A stretch of 64,000 bases of DNA, from the NCBI RefSeq assembly GCF_001937195.1, contig NZ_MSDO01000007.1, positions 1 to 64,000 of the forward strand, given 5' to 3'. The DNA is from Salinicola socius. GTDB lineage: Bacteria > Pseudomonadota > Gammaproteobacteria > Pseudomonadales > Halomonadaceae. Position numbers and translations under genes: made by a program. Shown one piece after another: positions 43,799 to 56,942 of the stretch. Under the pieces are notes generated by a model that saw only the letters and a list, made by a program, of their open reading frames with translations, did no database searches and had not been told where the DNA came from. Every line of letters starts with the position of its first letter. The first letter of the stretch is position 1.

Positions 43799-44758
43799 TC
43801 ACTCACTCCAGGGAGATTCATCCCAAAGCGCCTGAAAACGTGCCTGCAGGTCCTGAAGTGTTTGCTGGTAGATGGTCGGATCCTGATAGTCGAGTGGTAA
43901 CGACTGCTGCGCGGCCGCCTTCTGGAAGTCTTCGTTGTTCATGGCCGCTTCGACGGCACTGGAGAGCTTCTGAACGATCGCATCCGGGACCCCGGCAGGA
44001 ACGGCGATGCCACGGTTTGAGCCAATAGTCAGCTCGTAACCGGCTTCGGCGGTCGTCGGCACGTCGGGCAACTCCTTCGAACGCTGACTTGCGGCCTGCG
44101 CTAGCATCTTGATTCGCCCGGCTTTCACATCCGCCGCCGCTTCACCAATGTTGAATATCCCCATGTCGATGTGCCCGCCCATCAATGCCTGACGTACGTC
44201 GGCAGCACCGGGAAAGGGCACGTGGGTCATCTCGATTCCCGCCAGGCGCTGCAGCGCCAGCGCGGCCAGGTGATCGTCCGAGCCGACCCCGGTCGTGCCG
44301 TAGGTGATCTCGCCGGGGTGCTCCTTCGCGTAGGCGACCAGATCCTTGAGCGAGGCGAACTCGCTATCCGGCCCCACGTTGAAGCCATCGGGGTCGTCGA
44401 CGACGCTGGCCACCGGCTGGAAATCAGAAAGTTCGTAACGCGTGTCGCGTTCGATCGGAATGGTCAGCACGTTGGGCGTATTGATGAAGCCGATGGTGTA
44501 ACCGTCAGGCTCGGCATTGGCAAGTGCCGTGAAGCCGACCTCACCACCGGCGCCGGGACGGTTGATGACGGTGATATCGGTGCCCAATTCCTTCTCGATA
44601 TAGGGGACCAGTGTTCGCGCTGCGATATCCGTACCGCCTCCAGCGGAATAGCCGATGATCATCTGCACGGCGCGCTCGGGATAATCGGCCATGGCCGACA
44701 ACGGCATCAACATGATGGCGGCCATCGCAACGGTTCTTGTCTTCATGCCAGGCTTCAT
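43799..44758 (-). CDS. Tripartite tricarboxylate transporter substrate-binding protein (TctC/Bug family)
   Basis: 319 aa with a signal peptide cleaved after about residue 24 (SAMA before DYPE). Bug-family features are VQMIIGYSAGGGTDIAARTL, VINRPGAGGEVGFTAL and YGTTGVGSDDHLAALALQRL. AAAGGAGAGG precedes the ATG at 44758; the frame extends 43 codons upstream across the AT-rich promoter. First gene of tctCBA. Bug proteins bind carboxylates, so uptake of a di- or tricarboxylic hydroxy acid is likely. Confidence 0.9.
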   Translation of the reverse strand: MKPGMKTRTVAMAAIMLMPLSAMADYPERAVQMIIGYSAGGGTDIAARTLVPYIEKELGTDITVINRPGAGGEVGFTALANAEPDGYTIGFINTPNVLTIPIERDTRYELSDFQPVASVVDDPDGFNVGPDSEFASLKDLVAYAKEHPGEITYGTTGVGSDDHLAALALQRLAGIEMTHVPFPGAADVRQALMGGHIDMGIFNIGEAAADVKAGRIKMLAQAASQRSKELPDVPTTAEAGYELTIGSNRGIAVPAGVPDAIVQKLSSAVEAAMNNEDFQKAAAQQSLPLDYQDPTIYQQTLQDLQARFQALWDESPWSE

Positions 44759-45130
44759 GGACCTCTCCTTTCTCGCCGCCATCGCCTCGACGGACGTATT
44801 GGCTTGGCGACCTGTACTCAGATGGATGTCGAAAACGACTGATATCGCTCGACTCTCAATTATTGTTCTAATAAAAAACAAAATCATCGAATCATAGGTG
44901 CCTCATTGGCTCAAGCAGCGATTTCCATCATTGCTGCCGTAGATCGATAAAAACAACCAAATCCTTGATTAATAAATAATTTATTTTAACTTATACTTTT
45001 GTCTCGCATGAGAAAAGCGAAGATTTGATAGACACGCGATTAATATTGTTTTTTTATTGTTCGCGATGCTTTTCTGCGCCGGCCAGACCTTACGCATCGG
45101 ACGATCTCCTCATTAGAGAAGGAACAAAGA
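44759..45130. promoter_or_regulatory. AT-rich divergent control region between tctC and rraA
   Basis: 372 bp without a gene and clearly AT-rich compared with its flanks. It contains AAATAATTTATTT (44974-44986), a 13-bp palindrome. Promoters for tctCBA (leftward) and rraA-dehydrogenase genes (rightward) should lie here. I did not find the TTGTATACAA motif. The nearby FCD regulator is the likely binder. Confidence 0.5.
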
Positions 45131-45769
45131 ATGACCTCACAGACCGTCATGGACACGCTGAAGATCTTGGGCAGTGCAACGATTCACGAAGCTCAGGGCC
45201 AGCGTGGCGCCATGGATTCCGGCATCAAGCCGCTGGATCCAACGCTGAGAATGGCCGGCAGGGCACTGACCGTGGACTGCTCGCCCGGCGACAATCTGCT
45301 GATTCACTACGCCATCTCCAAGGCAAGACCGGGTGACGTGCTGGTCGTCGATGCCAAGGGCTTCACCGAAGGAGGGCCATGGGGGGATATTCTGACGCTA
45401 GCGGCTACGCTGGCGGGCATCCGCGGCCTGATCATCGACGGCATGGTGCGTGACACCGACACCATCATCGAATCCCAGTTCCCGGTGTTCTGCCGCGGGC
45501 TCTCGATCAAGGGAACGCACAAGCATCAATCGGGCAGGGTCAACGAAACGATCCAGTGCGGCGGCGTGGCGATACGTGCCGGCGACATCGTGGTCGGCGA
45601 TCGGGATGGCGTAGTGGTAGTGGCGGCCGAGGAGCTCGATGACGTCATCAGGGCCTCCCAGGCGCGCGAAGAGAAGGAAGAGGCATTTCGCCGCGAACTG
45701 GAGCAGGGGGCCAGCACGCTCGATCTACTGAATCTACGCGGCACCCTCGATCGCCTGGGTTTGAAGTAG
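45131..45769 (+). CDS. RraA-like / HMG-CHA aldolase family protein, first paralogue
   Basis: 212 aa. The family includes the RNase E inhibitor RraA and class II pyruvate aldolases that cleave 4-hydroxy-4-methyl-2-oxoglutarate and 4-carboxy-4-hydroxy-2-oxoadipate. It has the D-x20-R-D metal-site motif I associate with the aldolases: Asp86 then Arg107-Asp108 (WGD to VRDTD). The start is set by AAGGAAC. With a carboxylate importer on one side and two 2-hydroxyacid dehydrogenases downstream, a retro-aldol role releasing pyruvate is much likelier than RNase E control. Confidence 0.85.
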   Translation: MTSQTVMDTLKILGSATIHEAQGQRGAMDSGIKPLDPTLRMAGRALTVDCSPGDNLLIHYAISKARPGDVLVVDAKGFTEGGPWGDILTLAATLAGIRGLIIDGMVRDTDTIIESQFPVFCRGLSIKGTHKHQSGRVNETIQCGGVAIRAGDIVVGDRDGVVVVAAEELDDVIRASQAREEKEEAFRRELEQGASTLDLLNLRGTLDRLGLK

Positions 45770-45860
45770 AGCCTGGCGAGTCAATGACCGGCGCGTCGCG
45801 GGATGAGGGTATCGCGCGAAGACCCAATCCCCTTGATCGCCGGCCCCGCGAGACTGACTG

Positions 45861-47204
45861 ATGGAACGCTCGATGCCGATCTCAATCCGCACCCTTCTCG
45901 CTGACGCCCGATCGGCGGTAACCCGTCGCCGGCTGGCCCGTATTCACAATTTGCACGACTTTGAGGCGGCGGCTCGTCGATACCTGCCCCACTCCGTTTT
46001 TTCCTACATCGCCAATGCCGCAGAAGATGGTCAATCGTCCAGAGCCAACCGGCATGCCTTTGGCGATTATGGCTTCATGCCACGCGTGCTGGTGGATGTC
46101 TCCCAAGTGAGCCAGGCCACGATCCTCTTCGACCTGCCGGTGTCCTCACCATTCGGTATCGCGCCGATGGGACTCGGCGCACTGTGGGCCTACCGGGCCG
46201 ATATCGTCCTCGCTGATGCCTCAGCATCGGCGGGCATCCCGATGATCATGAGCGGCTCATCGCTGATTCGCATGGAAACCCTCGCCGACCGGGGAGACGC
46301 GACCTGGTTCCAGGCCTATCTACCGGCCGGGCGCGAGGCCATTCGGTCGCTGGTGGCGCGCGTCCAGGCAGCGGGGTTCACCACGCTGGTGATTACCCTG
46401 GACACGCCGGTTGCCACGAACCCGGACAACAACCGCCGAGCCGGTTTCTCCTCCCCCATGAAGCCGTCGGTCAGACTTGCCTGGGATGGCATTTCACATC
46501 CCGGATGGCTGTTCAACACGTTCCTGAGAACGCTCCATCACCACGGGATGCCGCACTTCGAGAACAACTACGCTTCCCGCGGAGCCCCCATTTTCTCCCC
46601 CCACGTCAACCGAGACATTTCCGACCGTGGCCATTTGAACTGGGACGACCTGGCATTCATTCGCGACATCTGGCCGGGCCGGCTGGTGCTCAAGAGTGTC
46701 CTGCATCCCACCGATGCGAAAAGAGCCCAGGCGCTCGGGGTCGACGCGCTCATCGTTTCCAACCACGGCGGTCGCCAGCTGGATGGCGCGGTCTCGCCGT
46801 TGTATGCGCTGGCCGACATCATCGCGGCAGTGGGAGACCTGCCGGTCATGATCGATAGCGGATTCCGTCGCGGCACGGACGTGCTGAAAGCCCTGGCTCT
46901 CGGGGCGCGCTTCGTGTTTATCGGGCGACCGTTCGCCTATGCCGCCGCCGTCGGCGGCGAGCCGGGCGTCGCGCACGCCATCGAGCTCATGACAGCCGAG
47001 ATCCGGCGAGACATGGCACTACTGGGCATCACCCGACTAGATCAGTTGCGCCGGGATCACCTGGTCGCGCTGACCTCGATGGCGGAGCGCTGCTTGTCGA
47101 ATGACAGCGACCCAGGTCGTCACGACAGCCTGGAGCATCCGTTATGTCGAGATCATCACACCGACCGAGAGAATCATCGTCAGGAAGCGAGGACCGAAAA
47201 TTGA
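45861..47204 (+). CDS. FMN-dependent L-2-hydroxyacid dehydrogenase (LldD family)
   Basis: 447 aa by the first ATG (a second ATG at 45873 is also possible). The flavin/substrate motif SNHGGRQLDG carries the catalytic His and substrate Arg; also seen are FSYIANAAEDG and FGIAPMGLGALWAYRADI, and MIDSGFRRGTDVLKALALGA. It oxidises an L-2-hydroxy acid to the 2-oxo acid. The last 30 residues or so are His/Arg-rich and unlike the family, and overlap the next gene. Between an RraA aldolase and a D-2-hydroxyacid dehydrogenase it probably prepares a 4-hydroxy-2-oxo acid. Confidence 0.85.
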   Translation: MERSMPISIRTLLADARSAVTRRRLARIHNLHDFEAAARRYLPHSVFSYIANAAEDGQSSRANRHAFGDYGFMPRVLVDVSQVSQATILFDLPVSSPFGIAPMGLGALWAYRADIVLADASASAGIPMIMSGSSLIRMETLADRGDATWFQAYLPAGREAIRSLVARVQAAGFTTLVITLDTPVATNPDNNRRAGFSSPMKPSVRLAWDGISHPGWLFNTFLRTLHHHGMPHFENNYASRGAPIFSPHVNRDISDRGHLNWDDLAFIRDIWPGRLVLKSVLHPTDAKRAQALGVDALIVSNHGGRQLDGAVSPLYALADIIAAVGDLPVMIDSGFRRGTDVLKALALGARFVFIGRPFAYAAAVGGEPGVAHAIELMTAEIRRDMALLGITRLDQLRRDHLVALTSMAERCLSNDSDPGRHDSLEHPLCRDHHTDRENHRQEARTEN

Positions 47205-48307
47205 ATCATCAACACAGTGCGTCGACACCGCTAGAGACAACGTCGCGGCAACGGTCTCTCAACAAGTCGGTCTTCCGACTCGATGTCTGGTACGACGAAT
47301 CGATGCAGGCTATTTACAAGACCCGACCCGATATCACGCTGACCACGCTTCCCGTCACCAGCCGCCTCGACGACTGTGCAGAGGTGCTGCAGGCGGCACA
47401 CGCCTACCAGATATCTTCGGCCAAGGATGAAACGCCTCCGATCTGGTTCGCCAACGAGGCCCTGCTCGCCAGAGCGCCCAATCTTCTTTGCGTCTCCACG
47501 TCGGGGTCCGGCTATGACACGGTCGATATCGAGGCCTGCACCCGTGCCGGCGTCCTTGTGATGAATCAAGCCGGCGCCAACGCCCAATCGGTGGCCGAAC
47601 ATACCTTGGGCATGATGCTGGGAGTCAACAAGCGACTCGCGGAGAATGACCACCGCCTGAGGCAGGGCGGCACGTTCTCCCGCGAGGATCTCATGGGACG
47701 CGAGCTCCAAGGCAAGACAGTCGGATTAGTGGGCATCGGCCATATCGGAAAGCGCGTCGCCGCGCTGGCCAAAGCGTTCGGCATGGACGTGATCGCCTAT
47801 GATCCGCTCCTGGATGCGGACACGGTTCGAGAGAGAGGAGCTCGGCCGGTGGCCCTATCGGCGCTGCTGGCCGAGTCGGATATCGTATCGCTGCACTGCC
47901 CGAGGAAGACCGACACGCTTGGGATGTTTGACGCTTCCGCCTTCGCTGCCATGAAACCTGGCGCTCTCTTCGTTACCACGGCACGCGGCGGAATTCACTC
48001 GGAAGCGGCGCTGGCCGACGCACTTCGTAGCGGGCACCTCGGTGGGGCAGGTATCGATGTCTGGGACGTTGAACCCCCACCCCTGGATCATCCATTGCTG
48101 GCCATGCCCAACGTGATGGCGACGTATCACACCGCCGGCGTCACGCACGAGGCACGGCGCAATATTGCGACCTGGGCAACACGGCAACTGATCGAAACGC
48201 TGGATGGTGAATTCCTGCCACGCTTGCTCAATCCCGAAGCCTGGCCAATTTATGCTGGGCGTTACTATGCGATCTTCGGAAAATATCCAACAAAGGCTTC
48301 TCGATAA
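47144..48307 (+). CDS. D-2-hydroxyacid dehydrogenase, NAD-dependent
   Basis: 387 aa from ATG 47144 (GGAG upstream). A TTG at 47201, overlapping the previous stop as TTGA, would give 368 aa and is a good alternative. NAD-binding GLVGIGHIGKRVAALA, then catalytic Arg in TTARGGIHSE, Glu region in DVWDVEPPPLDHP and catalytic His in TYHTAGVTHEARRN. It oxidises or makes a D-2-hydroxy acid. Co-translated with the FMN enzyme, which handles the opposite configuration, so both stereoisomers of one substrate could reach the same 2-oxo acid. Confidence 0.84.
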   Translation: MSRSSHRPRESSSGSEDRKLNHQHSASTPLETTSRQRSLNKSVFRLDVWYDESMQAIYKTRPDITLTTLPVTSRLDDCAEVLQAAHAYQISSAKDETPPIWFANEALLARAPNLLCVSTSGSGYDTVDIEACTRAGVLVMNQAGANAQSVAEHTLGMMLGVNKRLAENDHRLRQGGTFSREDLMGRELQGKTVGLVGIGHIGKRVAALAKAFGMDVIAYDPLLDADTVRERGARPVALSALLAESDIVSLHCPRKTDTLGMFDASAFAAMKPGALFVTTARGGIHSEAALADALRSGHLGGAGIDVWDVEPPPLDHPLLAMPNVMATYHTAGVTHEARRNIATWATRQLIETLDGEFLPRLLNPEAWPIYAGRYYAIFGKYPTKASR

Positions 48308-48755
48308 AGCACGAAAGCCTTGGCTTCTTTTCAAGACCGCCGGCCTAGCATGTTCGTGCAATCGAGAGACCAAATCGATTGGTATCGCATCCTGGTGGTT
48401 TGATTTCGAGCGCTGGACTTGGAAATGATGACACGCCTTGACCCGGCCAGCGCCGGACTGACGCTATCCGAGTGCTATCGCCGACCGCCTGCTGGCGACG
48501 GGCGACTCGTGTCGCAGCCAGGTCAAGCGACTCTCGGCGCAGACCTTGCCTCACCCGCTGCAGCCGCTGTTGTATCAACTAACGAGGCAGCAATAACAGA
48601 TTGCGTATCGTTGCGGGGAGCATCGAATTTCTTGGGTCGCATCTAAGCTTGGCTTCATTCAATGAGGCATATAAAGTCTATTTAGTGATGCTTTATCTAC
48701 GATAAGAATTCTTTTTTAGAATAAAGCCTTCAGCCCTAGATCCAAGGATTCCCGC
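48308..48755. other. Gene-free, partly AT-rich interval upstream of lysR
   Basis: 448 bp. The first 300 bp hold short frames but nothing I can defend as a gene. The last 100 bp are AT-rich and contain an inverted repeat ATAAAG/CTTTAT (48671-48676, 48691-48696) and the LysR-type box listed next. Confidence 0.6.
48708..48722. promoter_or_regulatory. T-N11-A box ATTCTTTTTTAGAAT, probable LysR autoregulatory site
   Basis: A 15-bp near-palindrome fitting the LysR consensus T-N11-A, 33 bp upstream of the lysR ATG. It differs by a single base from ATTCTTTTTAAGAAT at 52966-52980, upstream of the rraA-aminotransferase-symporter operon. Confidence 0.65.
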
Positions 48756-49661
48756 ATGATCACCTTCAAGCAGCTCGACGCGATCTACTGGGTCAATGAG
48801 TTGGGCAGTTTCGAGGCGGCAGCCAACAAGCTGCACACCACGCAGTCGGCGATTTCCAAGCGCATCCAAGAGCTCGAGGATGCGTTCGGCGTGGCGCTGT
48901 TCGACCGCAGCCGGCGGTCCGCGCGCCTGACCGACAAGGGTCTTGAACTATTGACGCTGGGTAGAGATTTGCTGGAGCGGCGCGATCATCTGCTCGAGCG
49001 GATCAGCGATGAGTCGGTGATCCAAAGCCACTTTCGCATCGGCGTGACCGAACTCACCGGTCTGACCTGGTTGCCACAGCTGATCGAAAGCATTCGCAAG
49101 CGCTTTCCCCGGCTCAATATCGAACCGTCGATCGGCCTTAGCAGTGACCTGTTCGGAAAGCTGGAGCAGGACAAACTGGATATGGTGGTCGTCCCTGACG
49201 TGTTCTCGGATACGCGATTCGTCTCTCAGCCGCTGCAAAACGTGGAGAACGTCTGGATGGCGGCTCACGGAACAGTCGCTGAGGGTCGCGAATTGACGCT
49301 TCAGGAGATCGGCGAATTTACGGTGCTCACTCAAGGCAGCCACTCCGGCACCGGTTTGATCTACGAGCGCTGGTTCTCGCAACATGGCACGCGAATGCGC
49401 AATTCTTTGGTGAGCGATTACCTGTTGGCTCAGGTTGGCCTGACGCTGGCAGGGGTAGGTATCAGCTACCTACCCCGTCAATGCCTTCAGTTTCTGGTAA
49501 ACCGGCGGTTGCTACAGGTACTGAATACCACGCCCGGGTTGCCCCGCGTTCAATACTGCGCGCTTTACCGCAGCGATCGTCAGTCAGGTTTGAGCGCGTC
49601 GATCTGTGAGCTAGCAAAGGAGACTTGCCAATTCAGCCAACTCTATTTCGATCGCCACTGA
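48756..49661 (+). CDS. LysR-family regulator of the aminotransferase/rraA operon
   Basis: 301 aa. Helix-turn-helix at residues 2-60 (FKQLDAIYWVNELGSFEAAA, TTQSAISKRIQELEDAFG). The substrate-binding domain follows (FRIGVTELTGLTWLPQLIE, VGISYLPRQC). AAGGA precedes the ATG. It is convergent with the symporter gene at 49685. The shared T-N11-A box upstream of its own gene and of the rraA operon links it to that operon. The inducer is probably the imported amino acid or its 2-oxo acid (inferred). Confidence 0.9.
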   Translation: MITFKQLDAIYWVNELGSFEAAANKLHTTQSAISKRIQELEDAFGVALFDRSRRSARLTDKGLELLTLGRDLLERRDHLLERISDESVIQSHFRIGVTELTGLTWLPQLIESIRKRFPRLNIEPSIGLSSDLFGKLEQDKLDMVVVPDVFSDTRFVSQPLQNVENVWMAAHGTVAEGRELTLQEIGEFTVLTQGSHSGTGLIYERWFSQHGTRMRNSLVSDYLLAQVGLTLAGVGISYLPRQCLQFLVNRRLLQVLNTTPGLPRVQYCALYRSDRQSGLSASICELAKETCQFSQLYFDRH

Positions 49662-49684
49662 CCCCGCCATGTCGATCGGAAATC

Positions 49685-50938
49685 TCAAGTCTTGCTATCG
49701 ATGGGTGAAGGAGCCGGCGCCGATGCCTGGATCGTATCCAGCAGGCGCTCACTCTTCGCCACCAACAATGCGCCAATCACATCCCCGGAGACGTTGAGCG
49801 TGGTATGTCCCATGTCGACGATGCGATAGATGCCGGCAATCACGCCGACGAGTTCGAACGGCAGGTTCATCAGCTGCAGTATCAGCGTGCCCATGACGAT
49901 ACCGCCACCGGGAATGCCCGGCGCCGCCATCGAGAGGATGGTGCCGATGAAAATCACGTTCACCATCTGCGACAGGCTCAACGGCAGGTCGTAGAAGCCC
50001 GCGGCGAACACCACCAACACCGAGAGATAAGCAGCGGCCCCCATCAAATTGATCGTGGCCCCCAGCGGCAGCATGAACGAGCACAGCCATTTCGGTACGC
50101 CAAGATCCTGATTGGTGACCTTCATCGTCACCGGCAGCGTGGCGTTGCTGCTGGTGGTCGACAGGGTCATTAGCCAGATCGGCACCATCTTGCGGACGAA
50201 GCGCGAGTAGGAGATTCGTGTGAACAGCACCAGCAGGATCGATGCCAGGGTCCAGATCGCCAGCAAAGAAGCGTAGTCCGCCAGCACGAACTTGCCGATC
50301 TGACCGAAGATATCGATGCCGTAGTTGGCGACCGCGTACGCCATCAGCGCGAAGATACCGAGCGGAGAGACGGCCATGACCATGTCGAGGATACGAAACG
50401 AGACCGCCGCACCCTCGTCGAATAGCTCACGCAGCCTGGCGGCACGCTCGCCCAGCATGACCATGGCGACACCAACCAGAATGGTGAACACGATCAACTG
50501 GATGACATTGCCACTGGCCATGGCCTCGACGGGATTGCTGGGAATCATCTGAAGCAGAAACTGGCCGATATCCAAACCGTTCGCCGCTGCATTCACTGGC
50601 GCACTAGCGTCGAGATCGAGCCCCTGTCCGGGCTGAATGATGGAAGCCACGGTCAGTCCGATCATCCCGGCAATGACTGTCATCACCGTGTAGACCAACA
50701 GCGTCTTGCCACCCACTCGCTTGAGCTGCTGGACATCGCCCATGTTGGCGATGCCGCCGGCCACCGAGAAGAAGATGATTGGCACGATGAGCATCTTGAT
50801 GCCACTGATGAAGGCATCACCCAGCGGCTTGATCGCCAAGGAGAAATTCTGAAAAAGTAAACCGCAGGCAATACCCAGCACGAAGCCGATGAAAATTCGC
50901 ACGGGCAAGCCCCGAGCGCCTCGGATAGTGATCGTCAT
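49685..50938 (-). CDS. Dicarboxylate/amino acid:cation symporter (GltP/DctA family)
   Basis: 417 aa, eight-helix DAACS fold. Family motifs are MLIVPIIFFSVAGGIANMGD, TLSTTSSNATLPVTMK (serine-rich hairpin), LGATINLMGAAAYLSV and GIPGGGIVMGTLIL, followed by RIVDMGHTTLNVSGDVIGAL. It imports dicarboxylates or acidic amino acids with H+ or Na+. Third gene of the rraA-aminotransferase-symporter operon (60 bp after the aminotransferase). Confidence 0.92.
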   Translation of the reverse strand: MTITIRGARGLPVRIFIGFVLGIACGLLFQNFSLAIKPLGDAFISGIKMLIVPIIFFSVAGGIANMGDVQQLKRVGGKTLLVYTVMTVIAGMIGLTVASIIQPGQGLDLDASAPVNAAANGLDIGQFLLQMIPSNPVEAMASGNVIQLIVFTILVGVAMVMLGERAARLRELFDEGAAVSFRILDMVMAVSPLGIFALMAYAVANYGIDIFGQIGKFVLADYASLLAIWTLASILLVLFTRISYSRFVRKMVPIWLMTLSTTSSNATLPVTMKVTNQDLGVPKWLCSFMLPLGATINLMGAAAYLSVLVVFAAGFYDLPLSLSQMVNVIFIGTILSMAAPGIPGGGIVMGTLILQLMNLPFELVGVIAGIYRIVDMGHTTLNVSGDVIGALLVAKSERLLDTIQASAPAPSPIDSKT

Positions 50939-50998
50939 GAGAACCTCGTTGTCGTCATTGTGAATTGTTAGATGGTTGCCATCAGGGTGCCGCCCGTA

Positions 50999-52204
50999 TC
51001 AGCGCAACGCACGGCATGCTTCGCCGAGCCGTCGACACCCCTCTTGAATCGCGGCCTCACCGATAGCGAAGGAGAGCCGGACATAGGGGGACAGCCCGTA
51101 GGCCTTGCCGCTGACCCCCGCCACCCCGACCGATTCGAGCCAATAGAGCACCACGTCATCGTCACTCCGGAGTCGCTGCCCGGTCGGCGTCTCGCGACCG
51201 ATCAGACCACCGACATCGAGATAGACGTAGAAGGCGCCATCCGGGGCGAAACTACTCACACCGATCACCGACTGAAGCCCCTCCAACATCAGCCGTCGAC
51301 GCTCGGTATAACGAGCGGCCATCTCGCGCACCGGTGCCTGGTCACCAGAGAAGGCCGCCACCGCGGCAGCCTGGCTGAGTGAACTCGGGCAGGTCGTCGT
51401 CTGCGAGATCAGCTTGACGATCCCCCGCACCAGATCGCTCGGCCCGGCACCGAAACCGATGCGCCATCCCGTCATGGCATAGCCCTTGGAGGCGCCATTG
51501 ACGATCAGCGTGCGCGCCTTGAGGTCCGGTGCGACGTTGATCAGGGAAAGATGGCAGGCCGGCGCATAGACGAAGTGCTCGTAGATCTCGTCGGAGATCA
51601 CGCCCACATGGGGGTTCTCGCGAAGCACAGCCGCCAGGGCATCGAGTTCAGCCGCGGTATAGACCGCACCGGTGGGATTGGACGGCGTATTGAGCACCAG
51701 CCAACGTGTCTTGCGGGTAATCGCGCAGGCCAAGGCCTTCGCCGTAAGTTTGAAACCACAGGTGGCATCGCAGATGACGATGCGCGGCACGCCCTCATTG
51801 AGCGCGACGAGGTCGGGATAGGAGACCCAATACGGCGCCGGCACGATCACCTCGTCGCCGGGATTCAGCGTTGCCGCCAAAGCGTGATAGAGGATTGGCT
51901 TGCCACCGGCACCGATTACGATCTCGTCGCGGGTGTAGTCGAGCCCGTTGTCACGTGCGAGCTTGTCGGCGACTGCCTGGCGAAGCGTCGGCGTGCCCGC
52001 TGACGGCGTATAGTGGGTATCGCCCGCTTTCAGTGCCGCGATCGCCGCCTCGGCAATATGCGCCGGCGTATCGAAATCGGGCTCACCGATGGTGAAGTTG
52101 ATGATATCCCTGCCCTGGGCGCGCAGTTCGGTGACGCGGGCATTGGCTTCGACGCTGGGTGACGGCTGAATGCGCGCAAGGCGATCGGCAAACGGTTGGC
52201 TCAT
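50999..52204 (-). CDS. Class I/II PLP aminotransferase, aspartate-aminotransferase type
   Basis: 401 aa, fold-type I. The PLP lysine is Lys240 in NGASKGYAMTGWRIGFG; NTPSNPTGAVY and DEIYEHFVY are the other cofactor-contact regions. It resembles the AspC/AAT-I-gamma group. Its ATG overlaps the rraA-like stop by four bases (ATGA), so transamination and the aldolase step are translationally coupled. I infer that it converts an imported 4-hydroxyglutamate-type amino acid to the 2-oxo acid. General aspartate or aromatic transamination remains possible. Confidence 0.88.
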   Translation of the reverse strand: MSQPFADRLARIQPSPSVEANARVTELRAQGRDIINFTIGEPDFDTPAHIAEAAIAALKAGDTHYTPSAGTPTLRQAVADKLARDNGLDYTRDEIVIGAGGKPILYHALAATLNPGDEVIVPAPYWVSYPDLVALNEGVPRIVICDATCGFKLTAKALACAITRKTRWLVLNTPSNPTGAVYTAAELDALAAVLRENPHVGVISDEIYEHFVYAPACHLSLINVAPDLKARTLIVNGASKGYAMTGWRIGFGAGPSDLVRGIVKLISQTTTCPSSLSQAAAVAAFSGDQAPVREMAARYTERRRLMLEGLQSVIGVSSFAPDGAFYVYLDVGGLIGRETPTGQRLRSDDDVVLYWLESVGVAGVSGKAYGLSPYVRLSFAIGEAAIQEGCRRLGEACRALR

Positions 52205-52884
52205 GCGGACTCCCTGCCGTACTCGAGCCCCTGCGCCGACAGCACTGCATCGAGCCAGCTTTGATGATGCGCACCAGTGGCGATTTCCTCCATGATGCCA
52301 GCTTCCTTCTGATCGCTGGCATGGGCCGCAGCGATCAGCGACTCAGCCTCCGACTGAGGGAAGGTGACCAGCCCATCCGCGTCGCCGACGACGATGTCGC
52401 CCGGATTGACCACCTGACCGCCAACCGAAACCGGCACGTTGAGCGCGCCGGGGCCGTGCTTGTAAGGGCCGCGATGCACGGAACCCCGGGCGTAACACGG
52501 CAGGCTGTCGCCCGCGAACGCCTCGACGTCGCGAATGGCGCCGTCCACCACGAAACCCGCGCAACCGCGCTGCTGGGCATATTGCTTGATCAGATCACCG
52601 ATCAAGGCATTGTCGAGGTGCCCCCCACCTTCTAGCACCAGGACATGCCCGGGGCGGATCAGCGTCAGTGCCTGGTAGATATAGAGATTATCGCCGGGGC
52701 GGCACTTGACCGTGAACGCGGTGCCGACCAGTTTGGTGCCATCGTGGTAGGGCGTTAGCCCCCGGATGCCGCTCAACCGATCGAGGTTGTCACTGAGATG
52801 CGGCGTGACGATGCTCTGAAGCGCCTCGATAAGCTCAGGATCGGCCAGCGTGGGAACGGTAGGAACGTGGGGGGAAAGACTCAT
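52201..52884 (-). CDS. RraA-like / HMG-CHA aldolase family protein, second paralogue
   Basis: 227 aa. It also has the aldolase-type D-x20-R-D motif: Asp97 then Arg118-Asp119 (IGD to AIRDVE). Start ATG 52884 follows CGGAG; the frame runs ten codons further. First gene of the operon with an aspartate-type aminotransferase and a DAACS symporter, downstream of the LysR-type box. Clearly related to the paralogue at 45131 (shared CRPGDNL/CSPGDNL, DG-x-x-RD, NPGDIVVGDADG-like ends) but too different for a recent duplication. Confidence 0.85.
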   Translation of the reverse strand: MSLSPHVPTVPTLADPELIEALQSIVTPHLSDNLDRLSGIRGLTPYHDGTKLVGTAFTVKCRPGDNLYIYQALTLIRPGHVLVLEGGGHLDNALIGDLIKQYAQQRGCAGFVVDGAIRDVEAFAGDSLPCYARGSVHRGPYKHGPGALNVPVSVGGQVVNPGDIVVGDADGLVTFPQSEAESLIAAAHASDQKEAGIMEEIATGAHHQSWLDAVLSAQGLEYGRESA

Positions 52885-52965
52885 GTCGGACTCCGGGCTT
52901 GCGGTTTCGATCACGGTAAGCGACGGCTATAAACTCAAAAAAGCGATATTTTTGTATCTTTAGAC

Positions 52966-52980
52966 ATTCTTTTTAAGAAT
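52966..52980. promoter_or_regulatory. T-N11-A box ATTCTTTTTAAGAAT upstream of the second rraA operon
   Basis: Perfect 6-bp arms ATTCTT/AAGAAT around TTT, about 80 bp upstream of the rraA-like ATG and 16 bp past the gltS stop. It is near-identical to the box in front of lysR at 48708. It could also act as a weak terminator for gltS. Confidence 0.6.
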
Positions 52981-52996
52981 CTTTTGCCGTGCGCTA

Positions 52997-54178
52997 TCAC
53001 GCAAACAGATTGATGAACAGCGTGATGACCAGCGGGTTGAAGATGTTGATGAACACCACGGTGATGATCGGTAGCACGAACCACGCCCGAGGCGCAGGCC
53101 CCCGGTCCTCGATGACCGCGGACATGTTCGCCAAGGCGTTGGGCGTCTGGCCCAGCCCCACGCCACAATGCCCAGCCGCCATCACGGCCGCGTCGTAGTC
53201 TCTCCCCATGCACCGAAAGGTAACGACATAGGCATAAAGCGCCATGACCGTCATCTGCGCCAGGAGAATGAGCACCATGGGCAGCGCCAGCCCAATCAGC
53301 GCCGCGATGTTGAGACTCATGAGCGTGATCGAGAGAAAGAGATTGAGCGAAATGTCCCCTATCACATCGATCTCGGGCATGCGCAGCGAGAACCGGCCTG
53401 CATCGGCAAGATTACGCACCAGCGCGCCGCCAAACAGGCAGCCGACGTAATAGGGGAATTGGATTCCCGTCAGGTTGAGCAGCCAGGAGATCACGGTACC
53501 GATGGCGGCGGCGATCAGAATGACCAGGGTCGACCGGAACAACCCGCTACCGGTCAACGGAGTCGACGCTTCTGTCGACTGAACGTCATGACTCTCTTTT
53601 CCCGCCGGCCGCAGGCCATGCCGATCGATCAGGCGTTTGGCAACGGGGCCACCGATGAGACTGCCCATCAGTAACCCGAAGGTGGCCGCCGCGATGCCGA
53701 TCGTCGTCGCGCCAGCTGCGCCAGCCGCTTCCAGTGTCGGCCCGAATGCTGCGCCCGAACCGACGCCACCGGACATCGAGATGGAACCCATGGCGATGCC
53801 CAGCAACTCATTGATGCCCAGCAATCGGCTCAAGCCCACGCCGACGAGGTTCTGAATCACCAGAAAAGCCACCGCGATGACAGCAAGCAGCGCACCCTGC
53901 CGGCCACTGGAGCGAATCAACGCGGCGCTGACCGTGAAACCGACACAAGTAAAGAACAGGTTCATGAAGAAGTTCTGCAGGATCTTGTCGAAGTGCACCT
54001 CGACCCCGAATCCCTGGGATGTCCCGAACAAAAGCAGGCTGACGACGAGCCCGCCGATGACCGGTGCCGGAATGAAAAAGCGTCGAAGCACCGCCACCCG
54101 ATGCTTGATCGACATACCAAAGAAATAGACCACCGCCGCGATACCCGCGGTCTGGATAATATCCAACGAGACCACCAT
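52997..54178 (-). CDS. gltS: Sodium/glutamate symporter
   Basis: 393 aa, ESS family. Two inverted five-helix halves with the GGVGSGAAFGPTLEA loop and the second-half HCGVGLGQTPNALANMSAV motif; FFIPAPVIGGLVVSLLL is also typical. GGAGGGC precedes the ATG. It imports L-glutamate, or a close analogue, with Na+. It stands upstream of the rraA-aminotransferase-symporter operon on the same strand, giving that locus two glutamate-type importers. Confidence 0.93.
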   Translation of the reverse strand: MVVSLDIIQTAGIAAVVYFFGMSIKHRVAVLRRFFIPAPVIGGLVVSLLLFGTSQGFGVEVHFDKILQNFFMNLFFTCVGFTVSAALIRSSGRQGALLAVIAVAFLVIQNLVGVGLSRLLGINELLGIAMGSISMSGGVGSGAAFGPTLEAAGAAGATTIGIAAATFGLLMGSLIGGPVAKRLIDRHGLRPAGKESHDVQSTEASTPLTGSGLFRSTLVILIAAAIGTVISWLLNLTGIQFPYYVGCLFGGALVRNLADAGRFSLRMPEIDVIGDISLNLFLSITLMSLNIAALIGLALPMVLILLAQMTVMALYAYVVTFRCMGRDYDAAVMAAGHCGVGLGQTPNALANMSAVIEDRGPAPRAWFVLPIITVVFINIFNPLVITLFINLFA

Positions 54179-54799
54179 TGCCGCCCTCCTCTCGATTTGC
54201 CATCAACACGGCGACAGGGAGCAAGCCGTGCAATCGGGCGCATTATCAGAGAAGGCGCGATACAGCGATATTGAACTTAGGTATTTGTTTTTAAAGCATT
54301 TATTAAATTACCAACCTGTCAGGTTACTGCAATTGTCCCGTCCTTACCGGGACTTATATTCGTGTAAATAGATGCCCTTAATCGATGATCGACGCGTCTA
54401 CTTAATCGAACTATGTGATGACGACCGCCACTTACCTCATTCATCTTTCGGTACGGAATTATTCTGTTCGCCTTAGGGCGCCAAGCAAATGAGCAGCGCA
54501 AGCGGAGTCATCTTATGAGGTTGTCCAATGCAGTGAGTGCTTCACCACCAAATGCCGTAGCCAGAGGGGTAACAACTCGAGGGCAGTCACTCAAAACTCA
54601 CCCAAATACAATCACATCACTTTGATATTTATGGATTTTATTTCCCATCCTGTACTTAGATTCAGGGCTTGGAGTAGCGTCCAGCGAAACGCAGGGAACT
54701 AAAAGTGAGGGAGAGCCGTGCATGGCAGCTCTCCCTCGCTTTTAATGATATGACTTTTGGTCACATCGGCTTACTGACTTGCTAACTATCCGGCCAAAC
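54179..54799. other. Long AT-rich gene-free interval with hairpins
   Basis: 621 bp. The first 130 bp should hold the gltS promoter. A hairpin GTCCCG/CGGGAC is at 54335-54340 and 54348-54353. The rest up to 54700 shows no ORF with a plausible start and no recognisable RNA. A strong terminator follows at 54701. Confidence 0.6.
54701..54743 (-). terminator. Long hairpin terminator downstream of the cytoplasmic cupin gene
   Basis: Stem of 16 bp with one G-T type mismatch: AAAAGTGAGGGAGAGC (54701-54716) and GCTCTCCCTCGCTTTT (54728-54743). A/T-rich ends on both sides would allow termination in either direction; the cupin gene read leftward ends 57 bp before it. Confidence 0.75.
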
Positions 54800-55201
54800 T
54801 CAAACCTTACCCTCATACTGCGCGTCTTCTACCTTCTCCATCCAGGTCACTGGAGAACCATCAATCGACTCTTGGATGGCGATGTGCGTCATCGCGACTT
54901 CGGGTGCAGCACCGTGCCAGTGCTTTTCGCCAGCCGGAAACCAGACGGTGTCCCCCGGACGAATCTCCTCGATCGGCCCACCTTCTCGCTGGACTCGCCC
55001 AAATCCAGCCGTCACGATCAGCGTCTGACCGGCTGGATGAGTGTGCCAAGCGGTCCGTGCACCGGGCTCAAAAGTCACCGCGGCGCCGCTGGTACGGCCT
55101 GGCTCTTCCGCCGTAAAGAGCGGGTCGATTCGAACCGTACCGGTGAAGTAATCTTCAGGGCCCGGGGTTGAAGCTTGGCTACCAACTCGATTGATCTTCA
55201 T
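54800..55201 (-). CDS. Small cupin of the hydroxynitrile-lyase type, cytoplasmic
   Basis: 133 aa, single cupin barrel without signal peptide. Metal ligands are His53, His55 and Gln59 (AWHTHPAGQ) and His94 (EKHWHGA). Size and these positions agree with the manganese-dependent cupin hydroxynitrile lyase of Granulicella tundricola as I recall it, including Ala40, Val42 and Gln110. Such cupins are often annotated (R)-mandelonitrile lyase; the natural substrate is usually unknown. CAGGAGC precedes ATG 55201. It is divergent from a LysR regulator that probably controls it. An exported paralogue lies at 56475. Confidence 0.83.
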
Positions 55202-55311
55202 CAAAAGCTCCTGATTTCTAGGTAACAGTGGAATAACTTCTGACATCTTAGCAGTTCACCCAGCGGTCATGATGACGTACACGAGGCAGGAGATATGAAA
55301 AGGAATCATAA

Positions 55312-56474: not shown

Positions 56475-56942
56475 ATGAATGCCAAGCAACTATTAATTGC
56501 AACCGGTCTCTTACTGGTAGCCAGCGTTTCTCATGCGCAGAGCCTGGAGATTACCCATAGCGAAGATCGACCAACCGTATTAGGGAGCAGCACCGAATTC
56601 TTCACTGGAGAGTCCGTGATCAATCCGCTCTTCGACGCCACTGAACATACCCGTGCCACTGCGGCCGAGGTAACGTTTCTGCCCAAATCACGTTCGAACT
56701 GGCATACCCATCCCGCCGGGCAAATGCTAGTCGTGACATCCGGCAAGGGCTGGGTACAGGCGGAAGGCGAAGACAAGCAGGTCATGCAGGCGGGTGACGT
56801 CATATGGACACCACCCGGGGTCAAGCACTGGCACGGCGCAACATCCGACAAGTCGGTTTCTCACATCGCCATTCAGGAGCAGGTTGATGGTGCCAATGTG
56901 AACTGGATGGAGCCTGTCACAGATGAGCAGTACGACGACTAG
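56475..56942 (+). CDS. Exported cupin, paralogue of the 54800 cupin
   Basis: 155 aa with a clear signal peptide (residues 1-21, ending SHAQ). The mature cupin has the same ligand set: His77, His79, Gln83 (NWHTHPAGQ) and His118 (VKHWHGA), plus Gln134. It shares HIAIQE and NWMEPV-type stretches with the cytoplasmic copy. It is followed after 100 bp by a lipoprotein with carboxymuconolactone-decarboxylase domains, so both act outside the inner membrane. The interval 56203-56474 holds no gene but two TCATGAT direct repeats (56311, 56324). Confidence 0.85.
   Translation: MNAKQLLIATGLLLVASVSHAQSLEITHSEDRPTVLGSSTEFFTGESVINPLFDATEHTRATAAEVTFLPKSRSNWHTHPAGQMLVVTSGKGWVQAEGEDKQVMQAGDVIWTPPGVKHWHGATSDKSVSHIAIQEQVDGANVNWMEPVTDEQYDD

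Follow-up and report, generated by a model that had tools for sequence, protein, structure and literature searches.

A conserved RraA-aminotransferase locus of Salinicola socius with a possible role in the use of 4-hydroxylated glutamate

We analyzed a 64,000-nt stretch of the Salinicola socius genome (the window; RefSeq assembly GCF_001937195.1, contig NZ_MSDO01000007.1, positions 1 to 64,000, forward strand), focusing on a locus at positions 48,708 to 54,178 that encodes an RraA-type aldolase homologue (RraA2), an aminotransferase, two symporters of glutamate carrier families and a LysR-type regulator. Our preferred, though tentative, reading is that these genes form a catabolic module under LysR control that degrades an unusual amino acid of the glutamate type, with 4-hydroxyglutamate or a 4-hydroxy-4-substituted glutamate as the most likely candidate. 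With slightly less confidence, the module may belong to an undescribed bacterial pathway for such amino acids and their lactam, in which an RraA-family aldolase replaces the HOGA1/KDPG (2-keto-3-deoxy-6-phosphogluconate)-type enzyme and which has a dedicated LysR, an operator and symporters of altered specificity. The sequence basis consists of the conservation of the rraA-aminotransferase pair, a distinct aminotransferase clade, an operator shared by pxp, rraA-aminotransferase and accC genes, and residue changes. The features are as follows.

52997..54178, minus strand: gltS, GltS-type sodium/glutamate symporter (TIGR00210 gltS, 334.9 bits, above the cut-off of 310.75)
52201..52914, minus strand: rraA, homologue of HMG/CHA-type pyruvate aldolases (Pfam PF03737, E 5.6e-45; PRK06201 subfamily, above cut-off)
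50999..52204, minus strand: aspartate-type pyridoxal phosphate (PLP) aminotransferase (PF00155; best NCBIfam model PRK06107, aspartate transaminase, 552 bits)
49685..50938, minus strand: atypical DAACS (SDF) symporter (PF00375, E 6e-117; aligned with GltTk and 9bgz)
48756..49661, plus strand: lysR, LysR-type regulator, convergent with the operon end (PF00126 and PF03466)
52936..52975, minus strand: conserved predicted operator TAAAAAGAATGTCTAAAGATACAAAAATATCGCTTTTTTG, 5' of rraA (42.2 bits with a matrix trained without Salinicola)
54264..54272, minus strand: possible, tentative half-site AATATCGCT, 5' of gltS (one of two AATATCGCT in the window; 0.24 expected)

Gene calls and family searches recovered all five genes where the original prediction had placed them, as well as the ATGA overlap (52201-52204) that it had noted between rraA and the aminotransferase gene.

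As judged from protein families, the amino acid would be imported by GltS and the atypical DAACS symporter, or by GltP or polar amino acid ATP-binding cassette (ABC) carriers in relatives. There, an OpdO-like porin and an MFS carrier would also take up the lactam, which PxpABC and a biotin carboxylase (AccBC), whose genes are absent beside the Salinicola locus, would open to the glutamate-type amino acid. The aminotransferase would then move the amino group to 2-oxoglutarate, yielding a 4-hydroxy-2-oxo acid. RraA2, by its family, fold and conserved residues a putative metal-dependent pyruvate aldolase, would cleave this acid to pyruvate and glyoxylate or, if C4 is substituted, to pyruvate and another 2-oxo acid, possibly pyruvate as well.

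Conservation of the rraA-aminotransferase pair

S. endophyticus, which has the nearest genome within the genus, conserves the entire block, including gltS, with protein identities of 85-92%. The differences are concentrated at third codon positions, which indicates that the proteins are under selection. Two other Halomonadaceae conserve RraA (80%), the aminotransferase (80%), the DAACS symporter (88%) and LysR (79%). Overall, the pair recurs in Halomonadaceae, Pseudomonadaceae, Herbaspirillum, Cupriavidus and Alphaproteobacteria (in genomes designated by G codes, gene calls combine open frames, GC by codon position and homology, and family names are inferred from kinship). Identities of RraA and the aminotransferase are 59% and 64% in G549, 59% and 61% in G948, 57-60% and 62-65% in G1072, G1130 and G1122, 58-59% and 56-58% in three Herbaspirillum, which have a polar amino acid ABC carrier, and 61% and 57% in Cupriavidus basilensis, where a canonical GltP lies beside the pair. 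A betaproteobacterial metagenome-assembled genome, G974 and Haematobacter carry the pair with ABC carriers, while Oleispirillum has LysR, RraA and GltS, the aminotransferase being absent at the locus. In Haematobacter, a glutamate dehydrogenase gene follows the ABC carrier in the operon, consistent with an amino acid other than glutamate being transaminated. Orthologues of lysR (41-85%) stand beside rraA or the aminotransferase gene in other genomes. This recurrence of the gene set in many genera is far beyond chance. The original prediction had called for such a survey and would have fallen had the genes not been found together; pair, carriers and lysR do recur.

Most loci were found via RraA, and the survey was repeated starting from the aminotransferase. 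In Pseudomonadaceae, homologues of at least 61% identity occurred in four genomes, all four with RraA adjoining, and two 52% homologues lay beside pxp genes without RraA. The distribution is rare, comprising 5 of 250 Halomonadaceae genomes and, by aminotransferase, 6 of 198 in the Pseudomonadaceae sample. Quick trees, with support from the SH-like approximate likelihood ratio test (SH-aLRT) only, placed RraA in a clade of 18 rows (SH-aLRT 98), 15 of them aminotransferase-linked; RraA and aminotransferase have also been joined separately in other parts of this tree.

A predicted operator shared with lactam-opening genes

A 40-bp imperfect inverted repeat, WAAAAGYGATG-N13-AAATATCGCTWWWW, was found 5' of rraA or the aminotransferase gene in Salinicola, Pseudomonadaceae, Oleispirillum, Herbaspirillum and Haematobacter; of the loci that have a lysR orthologue, most carry it before rraA. 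A matrix of 12 sites from other genera scored the window site at 42.2 bits, its own reverse strand at 23.7 and the next distinct site at 20.1; the site thus ranked first by 18 bits with a matrix trained on other organisms. A loose core, WWWWATCGCTWWWW, has two matches in the whole genome. No copy of the operator turned up when loci with a different, NAC-like LysR were searched, and the left half of a gltS operator was not recognisable at 54264..54272. Control by LysR, as originally claimed, is backed by the conserved operator before rraA, although lysR is convergent with the far end of the operon rather than upstream of it; on the operator evidence, we rejected the notion that its convergent orientation makes it irrelevant. 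As a separate observation, a Pseudomonas syringae plasmid (L068, 5966-8477) carries LysR (45%), RraA (50%) and an operator-like site (26 bits) with no aminotransferase beside them.

The main new evidence came from relatives. In G1072, a Pseudomonadaceae genome, the operator precedes three operons, namely MFS-oprD-pxpB-pxpC-BCCP-pxpA, rraA-aminotransferase, and BCCP-accC (BCCP, biotin carboxyl carrier protein), and in G948 it precedes both MFS-oprD-pxpB and rraA. Lactam-opening genes and the rraA-aminotransferase pair thus share predicted sites of one regulator. Indeed, Pxp-type genes and biotin carboxylase lie beside the pair or one of its members in G1072, G549, Microvirga (two), Variovorax and Burkholderia pyrrocinia, and further loci of this kind are found in Mesorhizobium ciceri, G659, G052, G1099 and G1113; in G549, accC is truncated and an IS30-type transposase gene lies downstream. 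ABC carriers of one type (41-75% identity) occur in both Pxp-linked and Pxp-free loci. Among solved structures, the G1072 porin is closest to the pyroglutamate porin OpdO (E 6e-145), and of the channels tested for pyroglutamate, OccK3/OpdO was the most efficient (PMC3260308). That 5-oxoprolinase genes and an OpdO-like porin belong to the same regulon suggests a substrate with a glutamate-type carbon skeleton, in the form of a five-ring lactam and of the opened amino acid.

Two loci showed a further arrangement: in M. ciceri (L097, 11992-22860) and G659 (L144), the aminotransferase and RraA genes flank biotin-dependent pxp genes. Between the two in M. ciceri lie genes for a proline racemase family protein and an Ldh-type oxidoreductase, a possible hydroxyproline connection.

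RraA2 retains core residues and the fold of HMG/CHA aldolase

The likely start of rraA is ATG 52884 (227 aa), with a GGAG ribosome site 8 bases upstream; GTG 52914 is the alternative. The predicted D-x20-R-D motif is present, and its numbering (Asp97, Arg118-Asp119) is right from the ATG start; counted from GTG, the motif together with the catalytic Arg and the metal ligands corresponds to D107, R128, D129 and E204. As a subfamily motif, however, it gave way to E-x20-R-D, the first Asp being Glu in an 88% orthologue and nearly all relatives. Codon 107 from GTG (52594-52596) reads GAT in the window, a one-codon departure from the Glu GAA of these proteins. R128, D129, E204, N76 and K152 (GTG numbering) are invariant, and RraA2 retains the catalytic Arg, the metal Asp and Glu, and Asn71 and Lys147 of 4-hydroxy-4-methyl-2-oxoglutarate/4-carboxy-4-hydroxy-2-oxoadipate (HMG/CHA) aldolase. 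An AlphaFold2 model of RraA2 (pLDDT 87) matches this aldolase (3noj) over residues 15-230 (Z 26.4, 2.1 Å, 212 residues), including its N- and C-terminal parts. Scores stayed below the cut-offs of the curated models TIGR02798 ligK (114.3 versus 304.5) and PRK09262 (124.7 versus 179) and exceeded that of the PRK06201 subfamily (268.8 versus 231).

PF03737 also includes RraA proteins, and RraA2 could on that account be an RNase E regulator with an incidental neighbourhood. We consider this highly improbable: RNase-inhibitor RraA proteins are devoid of the N- and C-terminal parts within the full-length aldolase match, the gene overlaps with and is widely conserved beside that of the aminotransferase, and the protein scores far below the cut-offs of the NCBIfam RraA models.

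The linked aminotransferases form a separate clade

The window aminotransferase scored 552.3 against the PRK06107 equivalog for aspartate aminotransferase, below its cut-off of 617, and its closest solved chains are AatB and AatA. In the tree, linked aminotransferases make up one clade of 17 rows (SH-aLRT 99), whose members are all linked to RraA or Pxp. It excludes AatA, AatB and the unlinked homologues of Halomonadaceae, and a few Pxp-linked enzymes (Microvirga, M. ciceri) fall outside it too. The enzyme keeps the GGK lysine, which in the Thermus aspartate aminotransferase contacts the distal carboxylate. Because glutamate is a likely co-substrate, this residue does not discriminate between substrates.

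Altered selectivity residues in the linked symporters

With respect to GltPh, the window DAACS protein carries D390->Tyr, R397->His and NMD->NLM (alignments with GltTk and 9bgz). It thus lacks the Arg that acidic amino acid symporters have at GltPh position 397 for binding the carboxylate of the side chain, and the original view of a typical glutamate symporter did not survive. The equivalent of R397 is His in the window, S. endophyticus, G045/G070 and G1130, and Arg in C. basilensis; G948 and G1122 have a separate GltP-like lineage with Thr for R397 and Tyr for D390. In the genus Salinicola, the main DAACS protein has Arg at this position, unlike SstT and a Cys-type homologue. Given that R397C abolishes aspartate transport by GltPh and allows that of serine and alanine (PMC5750217), the His- and Thr-type linked symporters probably do not carry plain glutamate or aspartate in the canonical way. 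The gltS gene adjoins rraA in S. endophyticus (92% kept) and Oleispirillum (66%).

These substitutions, together with the serine and alanine precedent of GltPh, would also suit another unusual amino acid, for example a 3-substituted aspartate whose 2-oxo acid RraA2 decarboxylates, or one with an uncharged side chain that gives a 4-hydroxyl 2-oxo acid. We deem this alternative unlikely, as GltS and GltP stand beside the same pair, and the pxp genes and OpdO-like porin of the regulon speak for a five-ring lactam, a form that amino acids of the aspartate type do not take.

A further DAACS subfamily of Salinicola (L169-L176) has Cys at the R397 position, as in ASCT2, which suggests a neutral amino acid carrier.

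Ordinary glutamate and aspartate use as the main alternative

The serious rival is ordinary pyroglutamate, glutamate or aspartate use, in which the carriers and PxpABC would supply the amino acids, an aspartate aminotransferase would form oxaloacetate, and RraA2 would decarboxylate it to pyruvate. Every gene fits by family, AatA and AatB being the nearest solved relatives; pxp genes and an OpdO-like porin in one regulon suit plain pyroglutamate, and C. basilensis has its canonical GltP beside the pair. We nevertheless hold this explanation to be rather unlikely. Such common nutrients sit poorly with the rare distribution, the aminotransferase clade is apart from AatA/AatB, two DAACS lineages have lost the Arg selecting acidic side chains, and the Haematobacter glutamate dehydrogenase would make a transaminase needless for glutamate itself.

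Several observations weigh against 4-hydroxylated glutamate as the substrate. Class II pyruvate aldolases generally decarboxylate oxaloacetate too (PMC5065237), an activity of RraA that would leave room for the plain aspartate/glutamate reading, and nothing in the sequence demands a 4-hydroxyl group. T145 and R195 of the Pseudomonas putida aldolase are not kept in RraA2, the former being replaced by Pro. The Arg-to-His change casts doubt on whether the DAACS symporter binds a plain carboxylate side chain. In G1072, the PxpA subfamily and PxpB models score over their cut-offs and PxpC_5OPro reaches 282.5 versus a cut-off of 500, so the lactam may differ from 5-oxoproline. Finally, no pxp genes lie beside the Salinicola locus, and its genome has a single pxpA elsewhere. 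Of the 4-hydroxy(-4-methyl)glutamate use put forward by the original prediction, the conserved pair with its amino acid carriers (GltS, DAACS/GltP, polar ABC), lysR and the aldolase residues stands, whereas the residue selecting acidic side chains is lost in the window's DAACS symporter and its Pseudomonadaceae counterparts.

Plants contain 4-hydroxyglutamate, and in mammals it is formed from hydroxyproline (PMC6350885). The literature searched yielded no bacterial pathway that uses it and no description of RraA with an aminotransferase and 5-oxoprolinase or hydroxyglutamate, a weak sign of novelty given that most subscription journals lay outside our coverage.

Neighbouring genes

Upstream, a plus-strand cluster (45131-48307), with TctC at 43799-44887 (minus strand), encodes a second RraA (RraA1), which exceeds the cut-off of the CHA aldolase/oxaloacetate decarboxylase model PRK09262, a flavin mononucleotide (FMN)-dependent 2-hydroxyacid dehydrogenase and a D-2-hydroxyacid dehydrogenase. 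C. basilensis and G948 have homologues of the FMN enzyme (55-61%) in the vicinity of their rraA-aminotransferase pair. We rejected this cluster as part of the RraA2 pathway and treat it as a separate module, since it is 93-96% kept in another Salinicola at a locus without the pair, and the pair of S. endophyticus is without these neighbours. Many Salinicola (L055, L056, L057, L059, L060) have another RraA (~40%) beside a 2-hydroxyacid dehydrogenase and TctC-type receptors, a recurring uncharacterised cluster that was left out of the survey for its different context. Two similar small cupins are encoded at 54800-55246 (minus strand) and 56475-56942 (plus strand), the first of which passes the threshold of NF049940, a model for (R)-mandelonitrile lyase.

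Comparison with known systems

Outside aromatic pathways, most RraA-like proteins carry annotations as hypothetical proteins or RNase regulators. The locus suggests for one RraA subfamily a role in metabolism that can be tested, together with a defined partner enzyme, carriers, a regulator and an operator, and its symporters would be naturally occurring cases of altered substrate selectivity among glutamate transporters.

RraA2 has the full-length fold of HMG/CHA aldolase (LigK/PcmE, GalC; 3noj) and equivalents of its Arg123, Asp124, Glu199, Asn71 and Lys147. It differs in its 31% identity, PRK06201 membership, E(D)-x20-R-D motif, the T145->Pro change, the loss of R195 and a locus that is not one of aromatic catabolism. 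The rhizobial aspartate aminotransferases AatA and AatB (6f77, 6f35) are ~50% identical to the window enzyme and have in common with it the GGK-motif Lys and the SK-x-AMTGW PLP site, yet they lie outside the RraA/Pxp-linked clade and differ in the signatures FTIGEPD and SDEIYEHF. HOGA1, the mammalian counterpart of the proposed cleavage step, is a dihydrodipicolinate synthase-type class I aldolase unrelated to RraA. The proposed chemistry, transamination followed by aldol cleavage, is nonetheless like that of the mammalian hydroxyproline route, in which 4-hydroxyglutamate is converted to 4-hydroxy-2-oxoglutarate and then, by HOGA1, to pyruvate and glyoxylate (PMC3188589). Lastly, pxpTABC of Corynebacterium glutamicum (PMC13274462) combines PxpABC with a carrier and a dedicated regulator, as do the loci of the relatives. 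It has neither RraA nor aminotransferase nor biotin carboxylase, and its regulator is of the GntR rather than the LysR type, whereas the Salinicola locus has no pxp genes.

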